Virus record (IMG/VR): IMGVR_UViG_3300042696_000074
Span: 1-29,515 of that record
DNA length: 29,515 nt
Strand: one strand, 5' to 3'
Origin: a virus
The notes beneath the pieces were generated by a model. That model did no database searches, was not told the DNA's origin, and was given only the letters and a program-made list of their open reading frames with translations. Positions 4,076 to 21,859 of the stretch are shown piece by piece; positions within the stretch are counted from its first letter, which is position 1, and every line of letters begins with the position of its first letter. A program made the position numbers and the translations under genes.

Positions 4076-4303
4076 TTAGAGAAGACTTACAGCAAACAGG
4101 TGATTGTCGTGTCCATAGGCAATTGAATTCTTGGCGTGGACTAGTTCGCCCTGCTCTAGCATGGCGGTAACGCCAAACGCATTCGCATAAGCACGTATGC
4201 AAGCGTCAAGGGGTGATGTTGCCGAGATGGTCTTAAATTTCCCATTGTACAAGTCGAACACGAGATAATCTCGCTTTGGTAGAACAACATCAAAATCGCT
4301 CAT
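4076..4303 (-). CDS. hypothetical protein, 75 aa, first gene of the leftward cluster
   Basis: Begins MSDFDVVLPKRDYLVFDLYNGKF, with AAAAAGGA 9 bases upstream inside the shared leader. The middle TSPLDACIRAYANAFG forms a helix of the type 'sp.eAi..Ya...g', common in small phage proteins that also carry a flanking strand (YLVFDLYNGKFKTI). No function is recognised. Being first after the AT-rich intergenic region and directly followed by a strong terminator, it should be the most highly transcribed gene of the cluster if leftward transcription starts near 4350-4400. Confidence 0.75.
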   Translation of the reverse strand: MSDFDVVLPKRDYLVFDLYNGKFKTISATSPLDACIRAYANAFGVTAMLEQGELVHAKNSIAYGHDNHLFAVSLL

Positions 4304-4312
4304 TGTGAGGAG

Positions 4313-4325
4313 TCCTTTTTGAGAG
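4313..4325 (-). promoter_or_regulatory. shared 13-base leader with Shine-Dalgarno (copy 1)
   Basis: CTCTCAAAAAGGA on the minus strand, 9 bases before the ATG at 4303 and identical to the copy at 3953-3965. A variant with two extra bases (CTCTCACAAAAAGGA) lies at 2853-2867, before the ATG at 2842. Confidence 0.6.
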
Positions 4326-4330
4326 TAGTT

Positions 4331-4405
4331 GAGTTAAGCTCACTACTAAGTACATATATACTATTGCTAGAAGTATATATGTACCTATATAGATAGTCTT
4401 AACTC
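4331..4405. repeat. nested perfect inverted repeats upstream of the leftward cluster
   Basis: Inner arms GTACATATATACT (4350-4362) and AGTATATATGTAC (4372-4384) are perfectly complementary over 13 bp with a 9-base loop. Outer arms GAGTTAAG (4331-4338) and CTTAACTC (4398-4405) pair over 8 bp. A further pair, CTCTACTAAGT (4403-4413) and ACTTAGTAGAG (4445-4455), lies just to the right, and CTACTAAGTAC occurs twice as a direct repeat. Position immediately upstream of the first leftward gene suggests operator sites or part of an origin. Confidence 0.7.
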
Positions 4406-5088
4406 TACTAAGTACCTGACTACTTGTACTAATGTATATATAGGACTTAGTAGAGTATTACTACCTTCTGTAATCGAGTACTTTGGTATAGGATATTGCA
4501 TGATACAGAACTACTATACCTGTAGAATACTACTATCTCTCACTATAGTAGTCCATCCAAGTATAGTTACTAATCTATCAGATATTAAGAGCATATCCCA
4601 CTACAGGATTAGATTACTACTGTACATCTTGAGTCTAACTATAGACCTATGTCTCACGACAATAGTCTATAATACTCTCATTACATCTCTATTGAATGCT
4701 CATACCGTCTGATTAGCACCATATGATATGTTCACCTATACCACTGTACTCATAAGACTCTATAGGCTAGATATACCGCTATAACTTTACCTATAGATTC
4801 ACCCCTCATTCTGGTACACTCTGCGATTACTACTTGGGTACTAACTTACTAACCTTACTAACCTTAGCTAGGCATAAGGCGCAGTAGTTACCTTTTACAG
4901 GATTATCTCTGATTACTGACAAGCTTCGCTAGTCAAGCGTTTACACATGTTACCAGTGTAGATTGCCCATAGAGCATCTGCTCACTATGCACACGTAGTC
5001 ATAGCACGCCTTAGGCATAATCTCCCCCATGACAGGGGTCGTTAGCACGTTCTGGTTATAGCTATCGCTAGGTCTTAGAGCCTCCTCT

Positions 5089-5106
5089 TGCGCCAAACCT
5101 GGCGCA
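5089..5106. repeat. GC-rich hairpin in the centre of the AT-rich region
   Basis: TGCGCCA (5089-5095) and TGGCGCA (5100-5106) form a perfect 7-bp stem with loop AACC. A second perfect stem follows at 5125-5142. Neither is followed by a clean T-run on either strand, although TTTTT lies between them at 5118-5122. Confidence 0.6.
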
Positions 5107-5124
5107 CTTGCCTATCCTTTTTGT

Positions 5125-5142
5125 TGTGCCTTTGTTGGCACA
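5125..5142. repeat. second central hairpin
   Basis: TGTGCC (5125-5130) and GGCACA (5137-5142) pair over 6 bp around TTTGTT. It lies 18 bp right of the first hairpin. Together they mark the point where base composition switches from C-rich to G-rich on the plus strand. Confidence 0.5.
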
Positions 5143-5245
5143 CCCCAAGTATAGCCTTTTTCAGGGGGTAGGAACTTTTGTGTTTTCAGCCCCAAAAGGG
5201 GTATCACCTCTCGTGTAAAATGGGGTCAAAAACGGGAAAATTGGT

Positions 5246-5399
5246 GCTATATCTTGTAGTATAAAAAACCAATATGCTAGTTACCTTAATCACAGTAGTG
5301 CTATATCTTGCGTACTAAAAATTCAAGATAGTAGTTACCTTAAACACAGTAGCGCTATATTTTTCACACTAAAAATCTAATATAGTAGTTACCTTAATA
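5246..5399. repeat. three tandem 54-bp repeat units
   Basis: Units start at 5246, 5300 and 5354, exactly 54 bp apart. Each begins GCTATAT, has an A-run in the middle (TAAAAA-type) and then (C/G)TAGTTACCTTAA 34 bases after the first element. Units 1 and 2 continue with (A/T)CACAGTAG into the next unit. In units 2 and 3 the first element and the block before TAGTTACC form inverted repeats with different sequences: TATCTTG/CAAGATA in unit 2, CTATATT/AATATAG in unit 3. Unit 1 has only a weak equivalent. These resemble iterons of a replication origin or an array of regulatory sites; there are no spacers, so this is not CRISPR. Confidence 0.85.
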
Positions 5400-5710
5400 G
5401 TTAAGGTTACCAAAGGCAGTATATTGATATATTTATACTTAGTCTTAGTTATAGTCCTAGAGCGGTAGCTATAGTGTAGATGTTAGTTATAGTAGTTAGT
5501 ATGAGTATATTTATATCTAAGAGAGAGTAGTGGTTAGTAGTAGTATATTCCTATTAAGTATTGAGTAGTATATCTATTAACTTACTCTTAAAGAAGCAGT
5601 ATATTTAATATCTAGTATTGGTATAGTTAGTGGAGGTAGTATTAAAAGAGTAGTATTAGTATGGTCTTGGTATATTACTCTTCTATATGAGATATAGTAT
5701 CTTCTATATA

Positions 5711-5748
5711 ATAAGAGTAGTTATTATCTAAGTAATAACTACTCTTAT
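5711..5748. repeat. perfect 16-bp inverted repeat
   Basis: ATAAGAGTAGTTATTA (5711-5726) and its exact reverse complement (5733-5748) flank the loop TCTAAG. It lies 65 bases beyond the stop of the leftward nuclease gene, so its RNA would fold at the end of that transcript, but no T-tract follows. A 10-bp palindrome ACTAGCTAGT lies at 5799-5808. It may act as a transcript-end stabiliser, weak terminator or protein-binding site. Confidence 0.75.
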
Positions 5749-5812
5749 ATTAGTACCTAGTATTAGTACTTAGTATTTAGTATGGATATACTATATATAC
5801 TAGCTAGTGAGT

Positions 5813-6760
5813 TCAACTCTCCTGGATTCCATTCAGAATCTTCAGCAACTTAATCCTGTTCCCCGCACTCAGAGCATCTAACCCGTAGAGAACTTCAACC
5901 GTCCTTTGGAACCTCTCCTGGCTATCCTGGTAAAGGAGACGGGCATTGTAGTTAGCTAGACTCTGCATCTCGATTAGCTCCCCTGGCTCTAGTTCTGGAA
6001 GGGGGCTAGTTGGCAACGCTCCACTCGCCCCTGGCCTATCCTGGTAGCAGAAGAAGTCCCTAAACTCACAGTAGTGACATTCAGTGTGCTTCCTGAAGGT
6101 GGCAGGGACTGGTGGCAGTGCCTTCCTCTGGGAGGCTAGTTTAGAGAGCCAGGCTGTTGCAAGGCGGTTGGTTAGCGATTCCTCTGAACAGTCAACTTGG
6201 AAGGTGCGAATGAGCAGTGGCCTTTTCGGTTGTAGGTTTCTGGACAAGTAGGTAAGCCAGGCCCGATGCACTCCACTGACAGCACAGTAGGTTTGTATCT
6301 GAGCGAGGTGGGTTGGCTTTGGTTCTGTGGGTAGTTCCCCACAGGTCTTGCACTCAACCAGTGCTAACTGGTCTTCAGAGTCAAAGACCACGAAGTCAAT
6401 CTTCCCGCTAATCTTAATCTCTGGCATCTCCACTAACCTGCAACTCTGGATGAGGAGTCTATCATTCCTCTTCAGCGTTGCTGCCAGCAGGTCTTCAAGT
6501 GCCACCCCAATCGCCATGTATGCGCTGCCAGCAGCGTTGACATAGCCATCCACCCAGGTGTTATGCTCAAGCAGGGTGTTGCGCCTGGCGCAAAATCCAG
6601 CATCAGAGCCGTAGAGGTAGGGTCGCTTCTCCACTTTGGGCGAATGTCTCTCCAACATGCTTTGATACCAGGCATCCATGTTGGTCTGGGGCAGACGTGG
6701 GTCGCCCCTGTAGATGGTGGCTTCCCCAACTCCCTCAACCCGCTGAAATTTAGCTGCCAT
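5813..6760 (-). CDS. Cas4/RecB-like PD-(D/E)XK nuclease with Fe-S cysteines
   Basis: A 315-aa predicted metal-dependent DNA exonuclease. The catalytic core is visible as GKIDFVVFD (D122) followed by LALVECKT (E136 and K138), then HLAQIQTY (Q154), the motif II-III-QxxxY layout of the RecB/Cas4 superfamily. One cysteine in GFCARR (C57) and three near the end in ECHYCEFRDFFC (C228, C231, C238) have the split arrangement that binds a 4Fe-4S cluster in Cas4 and AddB. Such phage nucleases process DNA ends in replication or recombination; that role here is inferred. The start at 6760 overlaps the end of the upstream gene by 11 bases. It is the last gene before the AT-rich region. Whether it acts as a 5' or 3' exonuclease cannot be told. 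Confidence 0.85.
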   Translation of the reverse strand: MAAKFQRVEGVGEATIYRGDPRLPQTNMDAWYQSMLERHSPKVEKRPYLYGSDAGFCARRNTLLEHNTWVDGYVNAAGSAYMAIGVALEDLLAATLKRNDRLLIQSCRLVEMPEIKISGKIDFVVFDSEDQLALVECKTCGELPTEPKPTHLAQIQTYCAVSGVHRAWLTYLSRNLQPKRPLLIRTFQVDCSEESLTNRLATAWLSKLASQRKALPPVPATFRKHTECHYCEFRDFFCYQDRPGASGALPTSPLPELEPGELIEMQSLANYNARLLYQDSQERFQRTVEVLYGLDALSAGNRIKLLKILNGIQES

Positions 6761-6995: not shown

Positions 6996-7046
6996 TCCTG
7001 TATCTCCGTATGTACAAATAGCTCCTTTGGACTTATACTTGACATC

Positions 7047-7075
7047 ATTATAGCACACCTTCTAGTTACCTTAAA
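7047..7075 (-). promoter_or_regulatory. leftward sigma70-type promoter
   Basis: On the minus strand, TGCTATAAT (7055-7047) contains a consensus -10 hexamer with an extended TG element. The hexamer 17 bp upstream is TTTAAG (7075-7070), a weak -35. Transcription would start near 7040 and give a leader of about 45 bases to the ATG at 6995. The -35 lies inside the repeated 12-bp motif at 7063-7074, so a protein binding that motif would affect this promoter. Confidence 0.6.
7063..7074 (+). promoter_or_regulatory. isolated copy of the TAGTTACCTTAA motif before the late operon
   Basis: TAGTTACCTTAA is identical to the conserved block of the three 54-bp repeat units (ending at 5289, 5343 and 5397). 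A partial copy, GTAGTTACCTTTTA, lies near 4883. Here it abuts the Shine-Dalgarno AAAGGAAG of the first late gene and overlaps the -35 of the leftward promoter. A weak rightward promoter (TTGGAC at 7027, TATAGC at 7049) may also lie here. It is probably an operator or a phage-specific promoter element. Confidence 0.55.
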
Positions 7076-7083
7076 GGAAGCTG

Positions 7084-7863
7084 ATGGCAAATTACAGGAC
7101 GCTGGTGGTCGCACCCAAAACAGACCTGCTTCTGGTGGACGATGAGGTTCAGCAGGTGGTCAACCTGCTGGGAGCCAAGCTCCTGCAAGGAAGCCAGGCC
7201 AATATACACGGACTCCTGGCAATCCTGGCTGAACCCTATGACATTGTTTGGTTTGCTACTCACGGTGATGAAAGGGGCGTCTATCTCAGTGATGGCATTC
7301 TCAATACAGCCGAGCTAACAGCCCTGGCACGCAGCAGTTCTACCCAGTTACTCGTTCTCAACACTTGTTCATCTCGACCTGTTGCACTTTCCATCTACGA
7401 TGAGTTGCGGATTCAACTCGTTTGTACCCTTCGCCCCATTCCAGACCGCAGCGCATTCATCACAGGCACTATCTTCGCCAGGAAAATTGCAGGGGGTGAG
7501 ACTTTCAGGGAGGCTTATCTCAGTGCAAAACCAGGACAGAACAATACCTATCTATTCCTGCCGGAGGATGGGACTGAAATGCCAGCACCCCGACCCCAGA
7601 ACCTAGAGACAGACATTTACCAGTTAGCTGCTTTGGTGCGCCGCCTTGAAATTTTGGTGAGTGGGAGTCCCGATTACAACGTGAACGGCTTGGTTCCAAC
7701 TGTCAACATGCTGGTGGATAAGGTGGATGCTCTCAAGGCAGACTTCCTTGTCCTGCGTGCCAATCAAATCTTCAATAAAAGGCTGCTGATTGGCATGACC
7801 ATTATCACCATCCTGCTTTTAATCTCGATGGTGGTGCTAGTTTTCCAGAAAGGCATCGTATGA
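7084..7863 (+). CDS. CHAT/caspase-like protease with C-terminal membrane anchor
   Basis: A 259-aa protein. The N-terminal 160 residues show the caspase-like CHAT fold: a strand ending in the catalytic His (DIVWFATHGDERG, H60), a loop with GVYLSDG, then a strand ending in the catalytic Cys (LLVLNTCSSRPV, C95). Later come FITGTIFARKIAGGETFREAY and a final strand, as in bacterial CHAT proteases. A helical linker (175-230) leads to one transmembrane helix (about 234-254), with basic NKR before it. This predicts a cytoplasmic protease anchored in the membrane. CHAT proteases act in bacterial defence and cell-death systems. In a phage late operon, directly before holin and lysin, it could serve in exclusion of other phages, attack on host proteins, or lysis control; all of these are inferred. 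The Shine-Dalgarno AAAGGAAG is 3-5 bases upstream. Its stop overlaps the next ATG. Confidence 0.75.
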   Translation: MANYRTLVVAPKTDLLLVDDEVQQVVNLLGAKLLQGSQANIHGLLAILAEPYDIVWFATHGDERGVYLSDGILNTAELTALARSSSTQLLVLNTCSSRPVALSIYDELRIQLVCTLRPIPDRSAFITGTIFARKIAGGETFREAYLSAKPGQNNTYLFLPEDGTEMPAPRPQNLETDIYQLAALVRRLEILVSGSPDYNVNGLVPTVNMLVDKVDALKADFLVLRANQIFNKRLLIGMTIITILLLISMVVLVFQKGIV

Positions 7864-8372
7864 ACGATGTTCTAATCAATCCCGTTATTCCTCAGGAGAA
7901 GAAGGTTAATGTTTGGGTGGAGAGATTCGCCTATGCAGGGATGATAGCCTTCGTCACCATCGCCTTCTTCCTGGCAGTCAGTATCCTCTACAATACCTAC
8001 TTCAATTCGCCACCCGCCTTGGTGGTGAGCCAGGATGGAGTCCCCACTGAACCCCTCTGCCCTGGTCAACGCTTCGACATTCACAACCATGTCGTGATCA
8101 AGAGCCAGATGATGCTCTACATCTACCTCTCAGTCATGGACAAGGACATGACCCACAACTTTGAAGGGACGCAGGTGAGTCTGCCCCCTCGCATTCACCC
8201 TCAACCCTCTGAATTTAACCAGATGATTCCCTGGATTGTGCCGGATTTACCCCCTGGAGACTATGTCAGAGCCATTTCAATGCGGGGTTATGTGGACTCT
8301 GAGAAGCCGCTTTTCCTCACAACCCACTTTTCTATAGGAGATAAACAGCAATGCAACGCCCGATTGAAGTGA
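7860..8372 (+). CDS. single-pass membrane protein with outer domain, 170 aa
   Basis: Residues 1-22 are a short cytoplasmic N-terminus and 23-46 form a hydrophobic helix (AYAGMIAFVTIAFFLAVSIL). About 120 residues outside the membrane look beta-rich, with Cys at 67 and 165 that could pair. The ATG overlaps the CHAT gene stop as ATGA, so the two membrane proteins are made together and may form a pair. No known family is recognised. It is too large and of the wrong shape for a standard holin, has no lipobox, and is not an obvious spanin. Its stop lies 22 bases inside the holin gene. Confidence 0.7.
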   Translation: MNDVLINPVIPQEKKVNVWVERFAYAGMIAFVTIAFFLAVSILYNTYFNSPPALVVSQDGVPTEPLCPGQRFDIHNHVVIKSQMMLYIYLSVMDKDMTHNFEGTQVSLPPRIHPQPSEFNQMIPWIVPDLPPGDYVRAISMRGYVDSEKPLFLTTHFSIGDKQQCNARLK

Positions 8373-8638
8373 TTGAACTCATCAAAATCCTGGTCAATGC
8401 AGCCGTTGTCTGGGTAGTGGTGATGGGTTTTTGGCCGATGGATGCGATGCAGCAAGCCGCAACACTCACCTTCTTCCTGGCTGTGGTCAATGTGGCGGGT
8501 GCGCTCTGGCAGAAGAACCAAGTCACACCCCTCGTTGACCCGAAAGACAAGACAGGCGAACCTTTGGTGCGAGCAGTGGATGGACAGCCCACACGTGCAG
8601 CCCGCAACTACCAGGCACGCAAGGAGCAGATGCGATGA
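8351..8638 (+). CDS. holin, two transmembrane helices
   Basis: A 95-aa protein with hydrophobic helices at about residues 10-27 and 36-54, a short turn containing Asp between them, and a charged C-terminal tail (KNQVTPLVDPKDKTG, then RAARNYQARKEQMR). The size, topology and 'VTP.vdP' after the second helix match class II phage holins in phages of Gram-positive-type hosts. It would open the inner membrane at a set time so the adjoining lysin can reach the wall. A good AGGAG site lies 10 bases before the ATG. The stop overlaps the lysin start as ATGA. Confidence 0.8.
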   Translation: MQRPIEVIELIKILVNAAVVWVVVMGFWPMDAMQQAATLTFFLAVVNVAGALWQKNQVTPLVDPKDKTGEPLVRAVDGQPTRAARNYQARKEQMR

Positions 8639-10899
8639 GTGTGCCGTTTGGACTCCATGATGCTGAAGGCGCACCCTTTGTCCCCCTTGGGGGCTGGTGT
8701 GTGGCCCTGACAAAACTCTCTGAGAGTGGCAACCCTGTCAACTACACAGCGATTCGGCCCGACATCAACTGGTTGGTGCGCTTGAACTGGGGCTATGGCT
8801 CGACAGGAACCATCCCCCTGCCCCAGGATGATGCGAAGTATGTAGCCGCTTTGCGCCAGTTCGTGGCTGGCAGTCGGGGAGTCCACACCTACATTGTGGG
8901 CAATGAACCTAACCACGAGCAGGAGCGACCCAACAATCAAATCATTACTCCCAGTAGATACATTGACTTTTACGAGATGGTGCGGGGTGTGATTAAAAAT
9001 ATCAATCCCCTTGCTTGGGTTGCGGTTGCGCCCTGCGCCCCCTACCACGCTTCTCCCACCTCCTGGCTTGACTACCAGAGCCAGCTTTGGAAGGGGGCTG
9101 TGACGGATGCCATCATCCTGCACACCTACCTACGCTCTTCTGACCCTGATGATGTGAACGATGACTCGCTTCGTATGGGGGATGGCGTCCTAAAAGGCAC
9201 TCAGGCTGGCTTTCTCAGCTACAGAGATGCCCTGCAACTCGTGCCAGGCAGGTTGAAAAACCACCCTGTCTACATCACGGAGTGCTGCGAACTGCTGCCT
9301 ATGGGGTGGGATAACAGGAATACGGGGGTCATCAAAGCTGTCTACAGGGAGATTCGCTCCTGGAATAAGCTGGCCGACAGGCCAAAAATCGCTGCACTCT
9401 GCCTCTACCGCTACCCCAACTACGACCATTACGGGTTGGTAGACAAACAAAATGTGCTGCAGGACTTTAAGGAAGCCATTTCAGAATCCTCTGTAGAGCC
9501 ACAGGAAGGGCAAGAGAACGTGTTTATACCGCAGGTAGTACAATCTAGCAGGGAAGGGGGTAACGTGGCCTCTACACTCGATTTAGAGCCATCCCTGAAA
9601 GCCAGGGGTGTTCGCATCCAGCCACCCTCCAAGACGGATGGCGTATTTGTCTGGAAAGTGGTGAAGGCGCACTGGCTAAACAAAGAAGAATCGCAGGGCA
9701 GACACCATTTCTACTTCGATGTGCTGGATGAGAAGGGCAACCGTTTGGTAGATGTCCCGATTCTCATCACCTGGCCGAGTGGTGTCTTCACCATCACCAC
9801 TGAGGCGAAGCCAGGCGAGCCGTACAGTGCCAACTACCCCATGTCATCCAGCAGGAACGACTACTCAGCGGTGGTGGCAGATGGCAACCCTTCTGAAACA
9901 GTCACAGGGGTGGGGATGGGGGCTGATTTAGGTGCAGGATTCAATGCCAGCGAGCATACCAGTACCTTTGTGGTCTTTCAGAAGGTTGAAAACACGGTGA
10001 AAACACCTACAAAACCCACTAATCCCCTACCCAAATCAGGCTTGTACAACCTTTTTCCACCCCTCGGAGACTACGTAAACCCACCCATCACACAACGTTT
10101 TGGTCAGAATTTAGAGGAGTACAAGCCTCTTTTGGGTCACACAGGGGTGGATTTTGCAGTGCCAACAGGCACAAAAGTCTTTGCCACCGATGAAGGAACC
10201 GCCTTGGAAGTGCGTGAAGATGTGGGTGGTTATGGCAATTACATCAAACTGGTGCATCCCTGGGGTGAATCTCTCTATGCCCACCTCTCCTACCAACTTG
10301 TAGGACAGGGGCAGCGGGTGCAGCGGGGTGAATGGATAGGATTGACAGGTAGCACAGGCAATTCAACAGGCCCACACCTGCACTTTGCCATTCGAGTCAA
10401 TCCCTATGATAGAACAGATGGCTATGATGGCTTTGCAGACCCGCTGCGCTATCTTAGCAGTGCAGCAAAACCCGTTACCATCCCCGCCCCTGGTGTTGTC
10501 TACGGCTATTCTGAAATTGTTCAGGTGATCAAGCAGGTGGCAGAAGAATCTAACCTGGACTGGGAGTTACTCGCTTCTCTTGCCTGGGCTGAAAGTTCAT
10601 TTAAACCCCAAATCCATGATGGACTCTTCCAGGTGGGCGATGATGTGTGGTCAGACTGGGCTTCTGTGGTCAAAGCCACTGAGAGAAACAACCCTTTGGA
10701 CAATGCTAGGGTGGCTGCTGCCTATCTCAACTGGCTTTTTGAGAAGACCAATGGGGATATTGAGAAGTCTTTAATCGCCTATAACTGGGGGTTGAGTCGG
10801 GTATTGGCGGGTGGAGAACCACCCGAACTGACCAGACTCTACATGCGAAAGATTATTCACGGTTGGGATTTGCTCAAAGCCGTGACGAAGGGGAAGTAA
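8635..10899 (+). CDS. multidomain lysin: glycoside hydrolase, M23 peptidase and SLT transglycosylase
   Basis: A 754-aa protein with three predicted catalytic domains. Residues 1-285 form a TIM-barrel glycoside hydrolase of clan A type with the acid/base in VGNEPN (E91), HTY at 163-165 and the probable nucleophile in YITECCE (E216). Residues about 295-455 are a beta-rich linker domain. Residues about 470-608 are a LytM/M23 zinc peptidase with HTGVD (H502, D506), H550 and HLHF (H581, H583). Residues about 620-754 are a lysozyme-like SLT domain with WAESSF (E653), GLFQVG and YNWG. It should cut both glycan and peptide in the host wall, with the barrel perhaps removing an outer polysaccharide. 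Its position after the holin supports an endolysin, although the size also fits a virion-associated lysin. AAGGAG lies 8 bases upstream. Confidence 0.85.
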   Translation: MSVPFGLHDAEGAPFVPLGGWCVALTKLSESGNPVNYTAIRPDINWLVRLNWGYGSTGTIPLPQDDAKYVAALRQFVAGSRGVHTYIVGNEPNHEQERPNNQIITPSRYIDFYEMVRGVIKNINPLAWVAVAPCAPYHASPTSWLDYQSQLWKGAVTDAIILHTYLRSSDPDDVNDDSLRMGDGVLKGTQAGFLSYRDALQLVPGRLKNHPVYITECCELLPMGWDNRNTGVIKAVYREIRSWNKLADRPKIAALCLYRYPNYDHYGLVDKQNVLQDFKEAISESSVEPQEGQENVFIPQVVQSSREGGNVASTLDLEPSLKARGVRIQPPSKTDGVFVWKVVKAHWLNKEESQGRHHFYFDVLDEKGNRLVDVPILITWPSGVFTITTEAKPGEPYSANYPMSSSRNDYSAVVADGNPSETVTGVGMGADLGAGFNASEHTSTFVVFQKVENTVKTPTKPTNPLPKSGLYNLFPPLGDYVNPPITQRFGQNLEEYKPLLGHTGVDFAVPTGTKVFATDEGTALEVREDVGGYGNYIKLVHPWGESLYAHLSYQLVGQGQRVQRGEWIGLTGSTGNSTGPHLHFAIRVNPYDRTDGYDGFADPLRYLSSAAKPVTIPAPGVVYGYSEIVQVIKQVAEESNLDWELLASLAWAESSFKPQIHDGLFQVGDDVWSDWASVVKATERNNPLDNARVAAAYLNWLFEKTNGDIEKSLIAYNWGLSRVLAGGEPPELTRLYMRKIIHGWDLLKAVTKGK

Positions 10900-20334: not shown

Positions 20335-20807
20335 TGCCGACACGAGAAGACTTGTTTGTTGCCAAGCTCAAGGCAGACCCGACAATGGTATCTCTTGCCC
20401 CTGGTGGCATCTATACCGATGAGGAAATCGGTCTGGAAGGAATCCATCGGGGTGCAGACTCCAACACCGATGCCGCCTTTGATGAGAAGGGAAGGCTCAA
20501 GACCTGTATCGTCGTGCGCCAGACAGCCGTGACACCCTTCAACAATGTGCGTTCCCAGAAGGACAAGATGGTTGCCACTGTGCAGCGTGTCGAGGTCTAC
20601 TTCTACCAGCACAGGGGTCAGGATGAAGTGGATGCAGCCAAGCTGCGTGCCTATGAAGTGCTGGAGGGGGAGAGGTTAATCGGAACCTACACCCTGACCT
20701 GGCTGGGTGAGTCACCCTTCTACTATGATGTGGGGCCAGTCGCCAATTCCACCACTCTGCGCCAGGACTGGCAGGTGGTGGGAACACGGAAGCCAGGCAC
20801 GACATGA
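20334..20807 (+). CDS. tail terminator-like protein, 157 aa
   Basis: A 157-aa alpha/beta protein with an N-terminal helix (REDLFVAKLKADPTM), an exposed loop and strands, a KLRAYEVLEGERLIG helix-strand, and a final strand pair. This layout matches proteins that end the tail tube and join it to the head. It begins within the stop of the head-closure gene (TGATG) and ends in ATGA with the glycosyltransferase. It is assigned by position and fold-like pattern rather than by a diagnostic motif. Confidence 0.6.
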   Translation: MPTREDLFVAKLKADPTMVSLAPGGIYTDEEIGLEGIHRGADSNTDAAFDEKGRLKTCIVVRQTAVTPFNNVRSQKDKMVATVQRVEVYFYQHRGQDEVDAAKLRAYEVLEGERLIGTYTLTWLGESPFYYDVGPVANSTTLRQDWQVVGTRKPGTT

Positions 20808-21859
20808 GGCTCAACTACTTCGCCTACTACTACACCTATGACGGCTATGGCAGATACAATGCCAGGCTGGTCAAAGCCCTCCTGGACTCAGGTGTGGATG
20901 TGAAGGTTGCCACAATGGAACACATTCCCATGCCAGCCTGGATGCACAAAAGGGAAGGGATTTGTTGGGATGCGCTCAGCATCTCTTCGATGCCACCCTA
21001 CTATCTGCAGCCAGTCCCAGGTCGCCACTGGCTTCTGACCATGACTGAGGGCAGTCTGGTTCCCCCCAAGTGGGTAGAGAAAATCAACACCTCTGGGGTG
21101 GAGCGAGTGATTGTGCCTTGCCAGCACAACAAACTCGCCTTTGAAGCGAGTGGCGTTACAGCACCTGTCTCGGTTGTACCAGGGGGGACTGACCCTGAAG
21201 AGTTCCTGCTCCTCTCCTCAGAACGTCCCCCTGCCAAACCCTACACCTTTCTAGCTCTGGCTGACAGAGGCAGCAGGAAGGGCTGGGAAGAGGTCTATAA
21301 CGCTTTCTACGTGGCCTTTGGGGGCAAGACGAGTGGTTGTAAGGATGTGCGCCTTATCATCAAGGAGCGACCTCCTGCGAATGGCAAGAGTGTTTTGAGG
21401 ATGATGGCAAATGCCCAGGGTATGGATGCACGCATTGTTTGCCAGACAACGGATATGCCTGACATGCGAGAGGTTTACGCTCAGGCTGACTGTGTGGCGA
21501 TTCCCTCTCGCAGTGAAGGGTGGGGAATGCCACAGCGGGAAGCCGCCATGATGGGACTGCCTGTCATTACCCAGCAGTACAGCGGCTTGGATGATGGTCA
21601 CACCCAGGAGTGGGCTTTGACCACAGAGCCAGGCGAACTCAGACCTGTCCCCAAGAAGGATGACAAGGCGGCAGGAGAGTGGATGGTGGCAGATGTGGCA
21701 AGCCTGGCTGACCGAATGCGCTGGTGCTACGAGAACCCTGCACTGGCTCAGGAGTTTGGTTACAAGGCAGCACAGTGGTTGCGTGCTAACCAGACCTGGC
21801 AGCACGCAGCAGACAAGTTGCTGGCATTGATAGGGGCGCAGGATGGCGTACCAGTCTGA
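20804..21859 (+). CDS. glycosyltransferase family 4 (GT-B) in the connector/tail block
   Basis: A 351-aa GT-B enzyme. The N-terminal domain starts with a strand and glycine-rich loop (YYYTYDGYGRYN). The GT4 hinge is VVPGGTDPEEF (124-134), then LADRGSRKGW (R155, K159). The donor site is PSRSEGWGMPQREA, giving an E-x7-E motif (E238 and E246) that binds the sugar nucleotide. It would transfer a sugar from an activated donor to a protein, DNA or polysaccharide. Position between tail terminator and gp10-like gene, coupled on both sides, points to a virion protein as acceptor, as reported for some phages of actinobacteria. The acceptor is inferred. No signal peptide is present. Confidence 0.9.
   Translation: MRLNYFAYYYTYDGYGRYNARLVKALLDSGVDVKVATMEHIPMPAWMHKREGICWDALSISSMPPYYLQPVPGRHWLLTMTEGSLVPPKWVEKINTSGVERVIVPCQHNKLAFEASGVTAPVSVVPGGTDPEEFLLLSSERPPAKPYTFLALADRGSRKGWEEVYNAFYVAFGGKTSGCKDVRLIIKERPPANGKSVLRMMANAQGMDARIVCQTTDMPDMREVYAQADCVAIPSRSEGWGMPQREAAMMGLPVITQQYSGLDDGHTQEWALTTEPGELRPVPKKDDKAAGEWMVADVASLADRMRWCYENPALAQEFGYKAAQWLRANQTWQHAADKLLALIGAQDGVPV

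Follow-up and report, generated by a model that had tools for sequence, protein, structure and literature searches.

Organization of the locus

The window, meaning the whole stretch of DNA analyzed here, is a 29,515-base virus contig from IMG/VR. Its late operon consists of at least 23 plus-strand genes between positions 7084 and 27919, which are separated by gaps of no more than 25 nt and in many cases overlap. The first of these genes (7084–7863) is a real open reading frame that starts with ATG, is preceded by a ribosome-binding site (AGGAAG) 3 nt 5ʹ of the start codon, and encodes a CHAT-domain protein of 259 amino acids. On its other side, a PD-(D/E)XK exonuclease gene (5813–6760) lies in the opposite orientation on the minus strand. 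Following the CHAT gene on the plus strand are genes for a membrane protein, a holin-like protein, a lysin with M23 and SLT domains, the probable small terminase subunit (its counterpart in the related phage L002 is 40% identical), and the large terminase subunit; the operon also contains genes for the portal, major capsid protein, a glycosyltransferase, and the major tail protein. The first-pass annotation had placed the CHAT gene at the head of a lysis operon. It does lead the lysis genes, but because the late genes behind it include those for packaging, head, and tail, it heads the whole late operon, and the earlier description was too narrow. The features of this region are as follows.

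5244–5405, plus strand: three tandem 54-nt repeats, each containing TAGTTACCTTAA, within AT-rich DNA that lacks long open reading frames
7011–7039, plus strand: candidate sigma-70-like promoter 5ʹ of the CHAT gene, of a kind whose count is not above chance
7063–7074, plus strand: the 12-mer TAGTTACCTTAA in the CHAT leader, ending 10 nt before the ATG
7084–7863, plus strand: tail-anchored CHAT-domain protein, 259 aa (Pfam PF12770, AlphaFold model, match to 8tl0)
7261–7263, plus strand: codon of H60, the presumed catalytic histidine, in FATHGD (aligned with the HG of 8tl0)
7366–7368, plus strand: codon of C95, the presumed catalytic cysteine, in LNTCSS (aligned with the NAC cysteine of 8tl0)
7597–7758, plus strand: helical, coiled-coil-like stalk, residues 172–225 (low-confidence model helices and profile likeness)
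7786–7842, plus strand: C-terminal transmembrane helix, residues 235–253 (hydropathy; tail anchor throughout the family)
7860–8372, plus strand: membrane protein with an N-terminal transmembrane segment and an outside domain (from the translation)
8351–8638, plus strand: holin-like small membrane protein, 95 aa (39% identity, E 2.5e-7, to a gene of L021)
8635–10899, plus strand: lysin, Peptidase_M23 plus SLT transglycosylase, 754 aa (Pfam M23 E 3e-25, SLT E 1e-12)

The first four genes of the operon overlap in turn by 4 nt, 22 nt, and 4 nt, the first overlap being an ATGA in which the CHAT stop codon meets the start of the membrane protein gene. This membrane protein, a possible partner of the CHAT protein, has no family match and no relative at E 1e-3 among the loci gathered. 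The L021 relative of the holin-like protein sits just before a lysin in a Caldilineaceae metagenome-assembled genome. Neither an integrase nor any tRNA or Rfam family was identified in the window.

Two further genes of the operon deserve mention in their own right. The lysin carries, ahead of its M23 and SLT domains, an N-terminal region of about 290 aa that contains YIVGNEPNHEQERP, appears glycosidase-like by eye, is matched by no Pfam family, and is common to Chloroflexota-bin prophages; the lysin is 32% identical over 606 aa to L021:5861–8449 and is also related to L097:1488–3803. The glycosyltransferase (20804–21859) belongs to the "GT4-conflict" family (PF20706, E 2e-16) and lies within the head-tail gene run, and a gene judged glycosyltransferase-like by eye occupies a similar place in a related phage (L003:11504–12616).

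Exact copies of TAGTTACCTTAA occur in the window in the CHAT leader and three times in the tandem array, and nowhere else. The array is part of an AT-rich stretch of about 1.5 kb (4303–5812; 37–39% GC), which is full of TAGTA/ACTA words and palindromes and is possibly an origin or control region. The longest word common to the leader and this stretch is 13 nt, a length reached in 3 of 1,000 Markov-shuffled controls. The shared sequence may serve to control the late operon and has no specific bearing on the nature of the CHAT protein. Scans of the window for promoters and terminators gave results at chance level.

Predicted structure of the CHAT protein

The 259-residue product matches the Pfam CHAT family (PF12770) over residues 17–98 with 32.7 bits (E 6.8e-8), above the gathering score of 24 bits, a cut-off that is also passed independently by the relatives in L034, L036, and L041. 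CHAT is the sole domain match in the protein; the remainder is the helical stalk and the transmembrane helix. Both residues of the proposed dyad, H60 in FATHG and C95 in LNTCSS, are found in the translation at the positions the first-pass annotation gave them. The C-terminal transmembrane helix that it described is likewise clear, with a mean hydropathy of 2.91 over residues 235–253. Because NKR precedes this helix and QKG follows it, the positive-inside rule predicts that the helix anchors the protein by its tail and leaves the CHAT domain on the cytoplasmic side of the membrane (N-in).

A single-sequence AlphaFold model (pLDDT 47) was superseded by an AlphaFold2 model built from a nine-sequence family alignment. 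The latter has a caspase fold, with pLDDT mostly 80–90 over residues 1–160 and 50–70 in the stalk and transmembrane part, where the stalk is modeled at low confidence as two helices (172–193 and 200–225); coiled-coil proteins also resemble this part of the family profile. Thus the check proposed earlier, structure prediction followed by comparison with CHAT proteases, returned a caspase fold and not an unrelated one. The closest solved chain in VIA-align is the SAVED-CHAT protease 8tl0 (Z 18.4, 2.4 Å over 160 residues, 19% identity), with caspase-6 (Z 14.8), legumain (13.9), and human separase (13.3) also scoring. In Foldseek, the only solved structures matched significantly were chains of 8tl0, the activated SAVED-CHAT filament (E 3e-8). 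The structure search speaks for the families that it lists. When the family profile is aligned with 8tl0, FATHGD falls on FIGHG and LNSC on LNAC, which are the expected catalytic columns. This correspondence came from the family profile; phmmer matches to the PDB (HicB and a weak caspase-3 stretch) were attributed to chance. Based on fold and conserved residues, the protein is a predicted caspase-type protease.

Among viral models in BFVD, the unnamed 264-aa protein A0A1P8DJ94 matches the fold over its full length (Foldseek E 9.5e-14, 24% identity), and its length and whole-length likeness make it probably a deposited member of the same family. The two models superpose with an rmsd of 23.9 Å, which suggests that they differ in where the stalk and anchor lie.

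A family of phage-borne CHAT proteins

No relatives of the CHAT protein emerged when its sequence alone was searched against GenBank phages, IMG/VR, and GTDB contigs; they were instead reached through the portal protein, which led to related phages. Two of these portal-related phages, L011 and L016, carry a distant CHAT protein, and an alignment including them retrieved ten IMG/VR loci whose products are up to 41% identical to the protein of the window. A nine-member profile then matched two full-length members (E 6.5e-36 and 5.8e-27) in genomes of the class to which a Caldilineaceae bin belongs. The resulting family has 11 distinct members, namely the protein of the window and 10 others in IMG/VR phages and two Chloroflexota genome bins. 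All share a compact N-terminal CHAT domain, a stalk, and a C-terminal transmembrane helix, and are encoded in or beside a phage late operon.

Several other matches were set aside or absent. PHROG holds no match for the protein, and the GenBank phage records in the collection searched hold no credible relative. A match in MT836801, a GenBank scaffold labeled "Bacteriophage sp.", was rejected because the 830-aa protein lies on what is apparently a bacterial contig, with subtilisin-like and ROK-like genes, judged by eye, as neighbors; a match inside the replicase of an ssRNA phage (E 0.03) was dismissed as chance.

C95, N93, S97, G61, and F57 are invariant in all 11 members, and H60 is histidine in 10. 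The exception, L041:7992–8618, has FAGDGD, with aspartate in place of the catalytic histidine, together with an intact NSCES motif; this copy may be inactive or may have a variant dyad with another base. The C-terminal hydrophobic helix is present in 11/11 phage members versus 0/32 Chloroflexota cellular CHATs whose 3ʹ end is closed (Fisher p 2e-10, a value that is too small because the phage proteins are related to each other). A tree of 62 CHAT domains places the 11 phage members on one branch (support 85/55), and the eight nearest the protein of the window are grouped with support of 97/89. Between members that are about 80–90% identical, dN/dS is 0.08–0.14, indicating that these are working genes under purifying selection. 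The dyad, CHAT motifs, and tail anchor have been kept in 10 other distinct relatives, and the initial observation was more than chance. The CHAT fold, dyad, anchor, and phage origin of the 7084–7863 product are all supported.

Gene contexts in related phages

The position of the CHAT gene differs among these phages. While in the window it is followed by the membrane protein, holin-like, lysin, and terminase genes, in L032–L035 it is flanked on one side by an adaptor-like (head-tail) gene located after that for the major capsid protein and on the other by HK97-gp10-like neck and tail-terminator genes. It precedes a fibre-like gene in L036, with a PHROG holin (7e-12) two genes downstream, and a small membrane ORF in L037. 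In L040 and L041, the CHAT gene ends the gene run and directly follows a stand-alone receiver-domain gene (PF00072, E about 1e-11), itself preceded by one or two small membrane proteins. It follows the tail genes and overlaps the gene for a 130-aa membrane protein in L095, and stands directly before the terminase genes in L096. Overall, a small membrane protein is encoded within two genes of CHAT in five of the seven context types.

The portal of one prophage in the Caldilineaceae bin is 59% identical to that of the window. This prophage has a holin-like gene and a lysin near a tRNA-Trp and no adjoining CHAT gene; the sole match to the family profile in that genome is on another contig, in a 1665-residue frame. 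Together with the varied contexts, this relative indicates an accessory late gene rather than a core lysis gene, and the latter assignment was downgraded. The CHAT protein also matches no known lysis family (holin, endolysin, or spanin) in PHROG, and its place in a lysis cassette is not constant. Phages whose capsids belong to different families carry the gene, which is accessory and mobile among their late operons.

Stand-alone receiver proteins are encoded in three of the late runs (L041:7613–8020, L040:7637–8023, and L005:2816–3352), in L005 near a putative lysozyme with weak likeness to GH19 (E 0.049). They may couple these phages to host two-component signaling.

Probable host of the phage

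The virus probably infects Chloroflexota bacteria, judging from sequence relationships to genome bins, which phage contigs can contaminate. The Caldilineaceae bin carries relatives of the TerL, portal, lysin, and holin-like protein of the window, and the two full-length CHAT members described above come from genomes of the same class. The phage CHAT profile is matched at 1e-8 in 58 of 396 genomes of the class, with five CHAT proteins in one bin. One Caldilineaceae bin contains two different prophage-like regions related to this phage, L097 (G020:C43:27000–46000) and L021. The tRNA-Trp adjoining the holin-like gene and lysin in one such region is a possible attachment site.

Proposed function and alternatives

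The preferred reading, to which a probability of about one half is assigned, is that the protein is a late, membrane-tethered CHAT protease, the product of an accessory, host-directed "moron" in the late operons of Chloroflexota phages. Encoded by the leading gene of the late operon, it would be made late in infection, and its C-terminal helix would hold the CHAT domain on the cytoplasmic side of the host cell membrane, where the coiled-coil-like stalk may promote clustering. The H60/C95 dyad would then cut a membrane-associated or nearby cytoplasmic protein. Candidate targets include a late host response, a membrane protein, and the CHAT-type suicide machinery of the host itself. Because the gene is optional and varies in its position within late operons, a host target is likelier than a part of the virion or of the core lysis machine.

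The surroundings of the gene in the window suggest a different role, in which a protease co-translated with the lysis genes would time lysis by processing, from within the cytoplasm, a lysis protein or a protein of the host envelope. The run of overlaps from CHAT to lysin fits such a role, as do the holin downstream of CHAT in L036, the small membrane ORFs that adjoin CHAT in L037, L040, L041, and L095, and the frequency of small membrane proteins across the context types. However, similarly short overlaps occur throughout the late operon, and evidence for a holin exists for only two of the small membrane proteins. Moreover, the gene is found among head and neck genes or before the terminase in other phages, and the related prophage has its holin-like gene and lysin without CHAT. 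A dedicated part in lysis timing, one of the possibilities raised in the first-pass annotation, is thereby weakened, and control of lysis is a possible but doubtful explanation. Another role consistent with the distribution of the gene is superinfection exclusion or lysogenic conversion, whereby an anchored protease expressed from the prophage would block other phages or the entry of their DNA. Exclusion and conversion morons are often accessory, membrane-bound, and variable in position, as the CHAT gene is, and full-length members are found in bacterial genome bins, one of them directly upstream of terminase genes. Yet the CHAT gene of the window has no transcription unit of its own and leads a late operon, which would normally be silent in a lysogen, and no integrase was identified in the window, making this role unlikely.

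It is also conceivable that the proteins do not cleave anything and act as decoys or dominant-negative copies, binding the partners of host CHAT proteins, or as a membrane scaffold. The L041 member without the catalytic histidine and the abundance of CHAT proteins in Chloroflexota genomes would suit such a function, but the dyad region (invariant C95, N93, and S97, with H60 in all members but one) is conserved across very diverged proteins, which is hard to explain without catalysis and renders a non-catalytic function improbable. A more speculative and rather unlikely proposal is that Chloroflexota phages control the time and manner of host death with their own tethered caspase-like protease, in some cases together with a receiver protein, in answer to host signals. 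Such an enzyme would be a cell-death protease that a virus brings into bacteria.

Comparison with known CHAT systems

Known proteins of this fold serve bacteria in immunity or cell death, and bacteria use CHAT proteases to fight phages, as in type III CRISPR and Borvo; here the protease is carried by the virus. If active, it would be a phage-borne counterpart of caspase-type proteases that ties the exit of phages to programmed death in bacteria and to counter-defence, and it might serve as a tool protease. No description of a phage-borne, membrane-anchored CHAT protein was found in the non-subscription literature searched.

The closest structural relative, the SAVED-CHAT protease of type III CRISPR, is a bacterial immune effector (PMC11417357). 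The phage protein shares its fold and its HG ... NxC columns. However, SAVED-CHAT has a SAVED domain that senses cyclic oligoadenylates and lacks a membrane anchor, whereas the 259-aa phage protein contains no SAVED or other sensor domain and ends in a transmembrane helix. TPR-CHAT (Csx29) of Craspase, in type III-E CRISPR, is likewise a CHAT-type protease in phage–bacterium conflict (PMC10028731, PMC9729208). Unlike the anchored phage protein, Csx29 is soluble, belongs to the bacterial side, and is activated by a guide-RNA complex through its TPR repeats; the phage protein has no TPR match, and its gene is surrounded by phage genes, not Cas7-11.

CHAT proteins serve as bacterial effectors in Borvo as well as in type III-E CRISPR (PMC10952713). 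BovA of Borvo has the CHAT domain (PF12770) in common with the phage protein (PMC10952713), but it is encoded by a bacterial defence gene rather than in a phage late operon, and its profile matches the phage protein with 13.7 bits (E 0.0058) over residues 51–97, covering 56 of 711 profile positions, with no full-length match. CHAT proteins also occur in the conflict systems of multicellular bacteria (PMC10907252). Among the proteins compared, the nearest sequence relatives outside the phage family are the cellular CHAT proteins of Chloroflexota. Most of these are larger and several contain additional domains; the C-terminal transmembrane helix is absent from all 32 that could be compared. Thus, while the CHAT domain itself was already known, the tail-anchored architecture and the phage late-operon setting are new, and they define a conserved phage family with a maintained active site.
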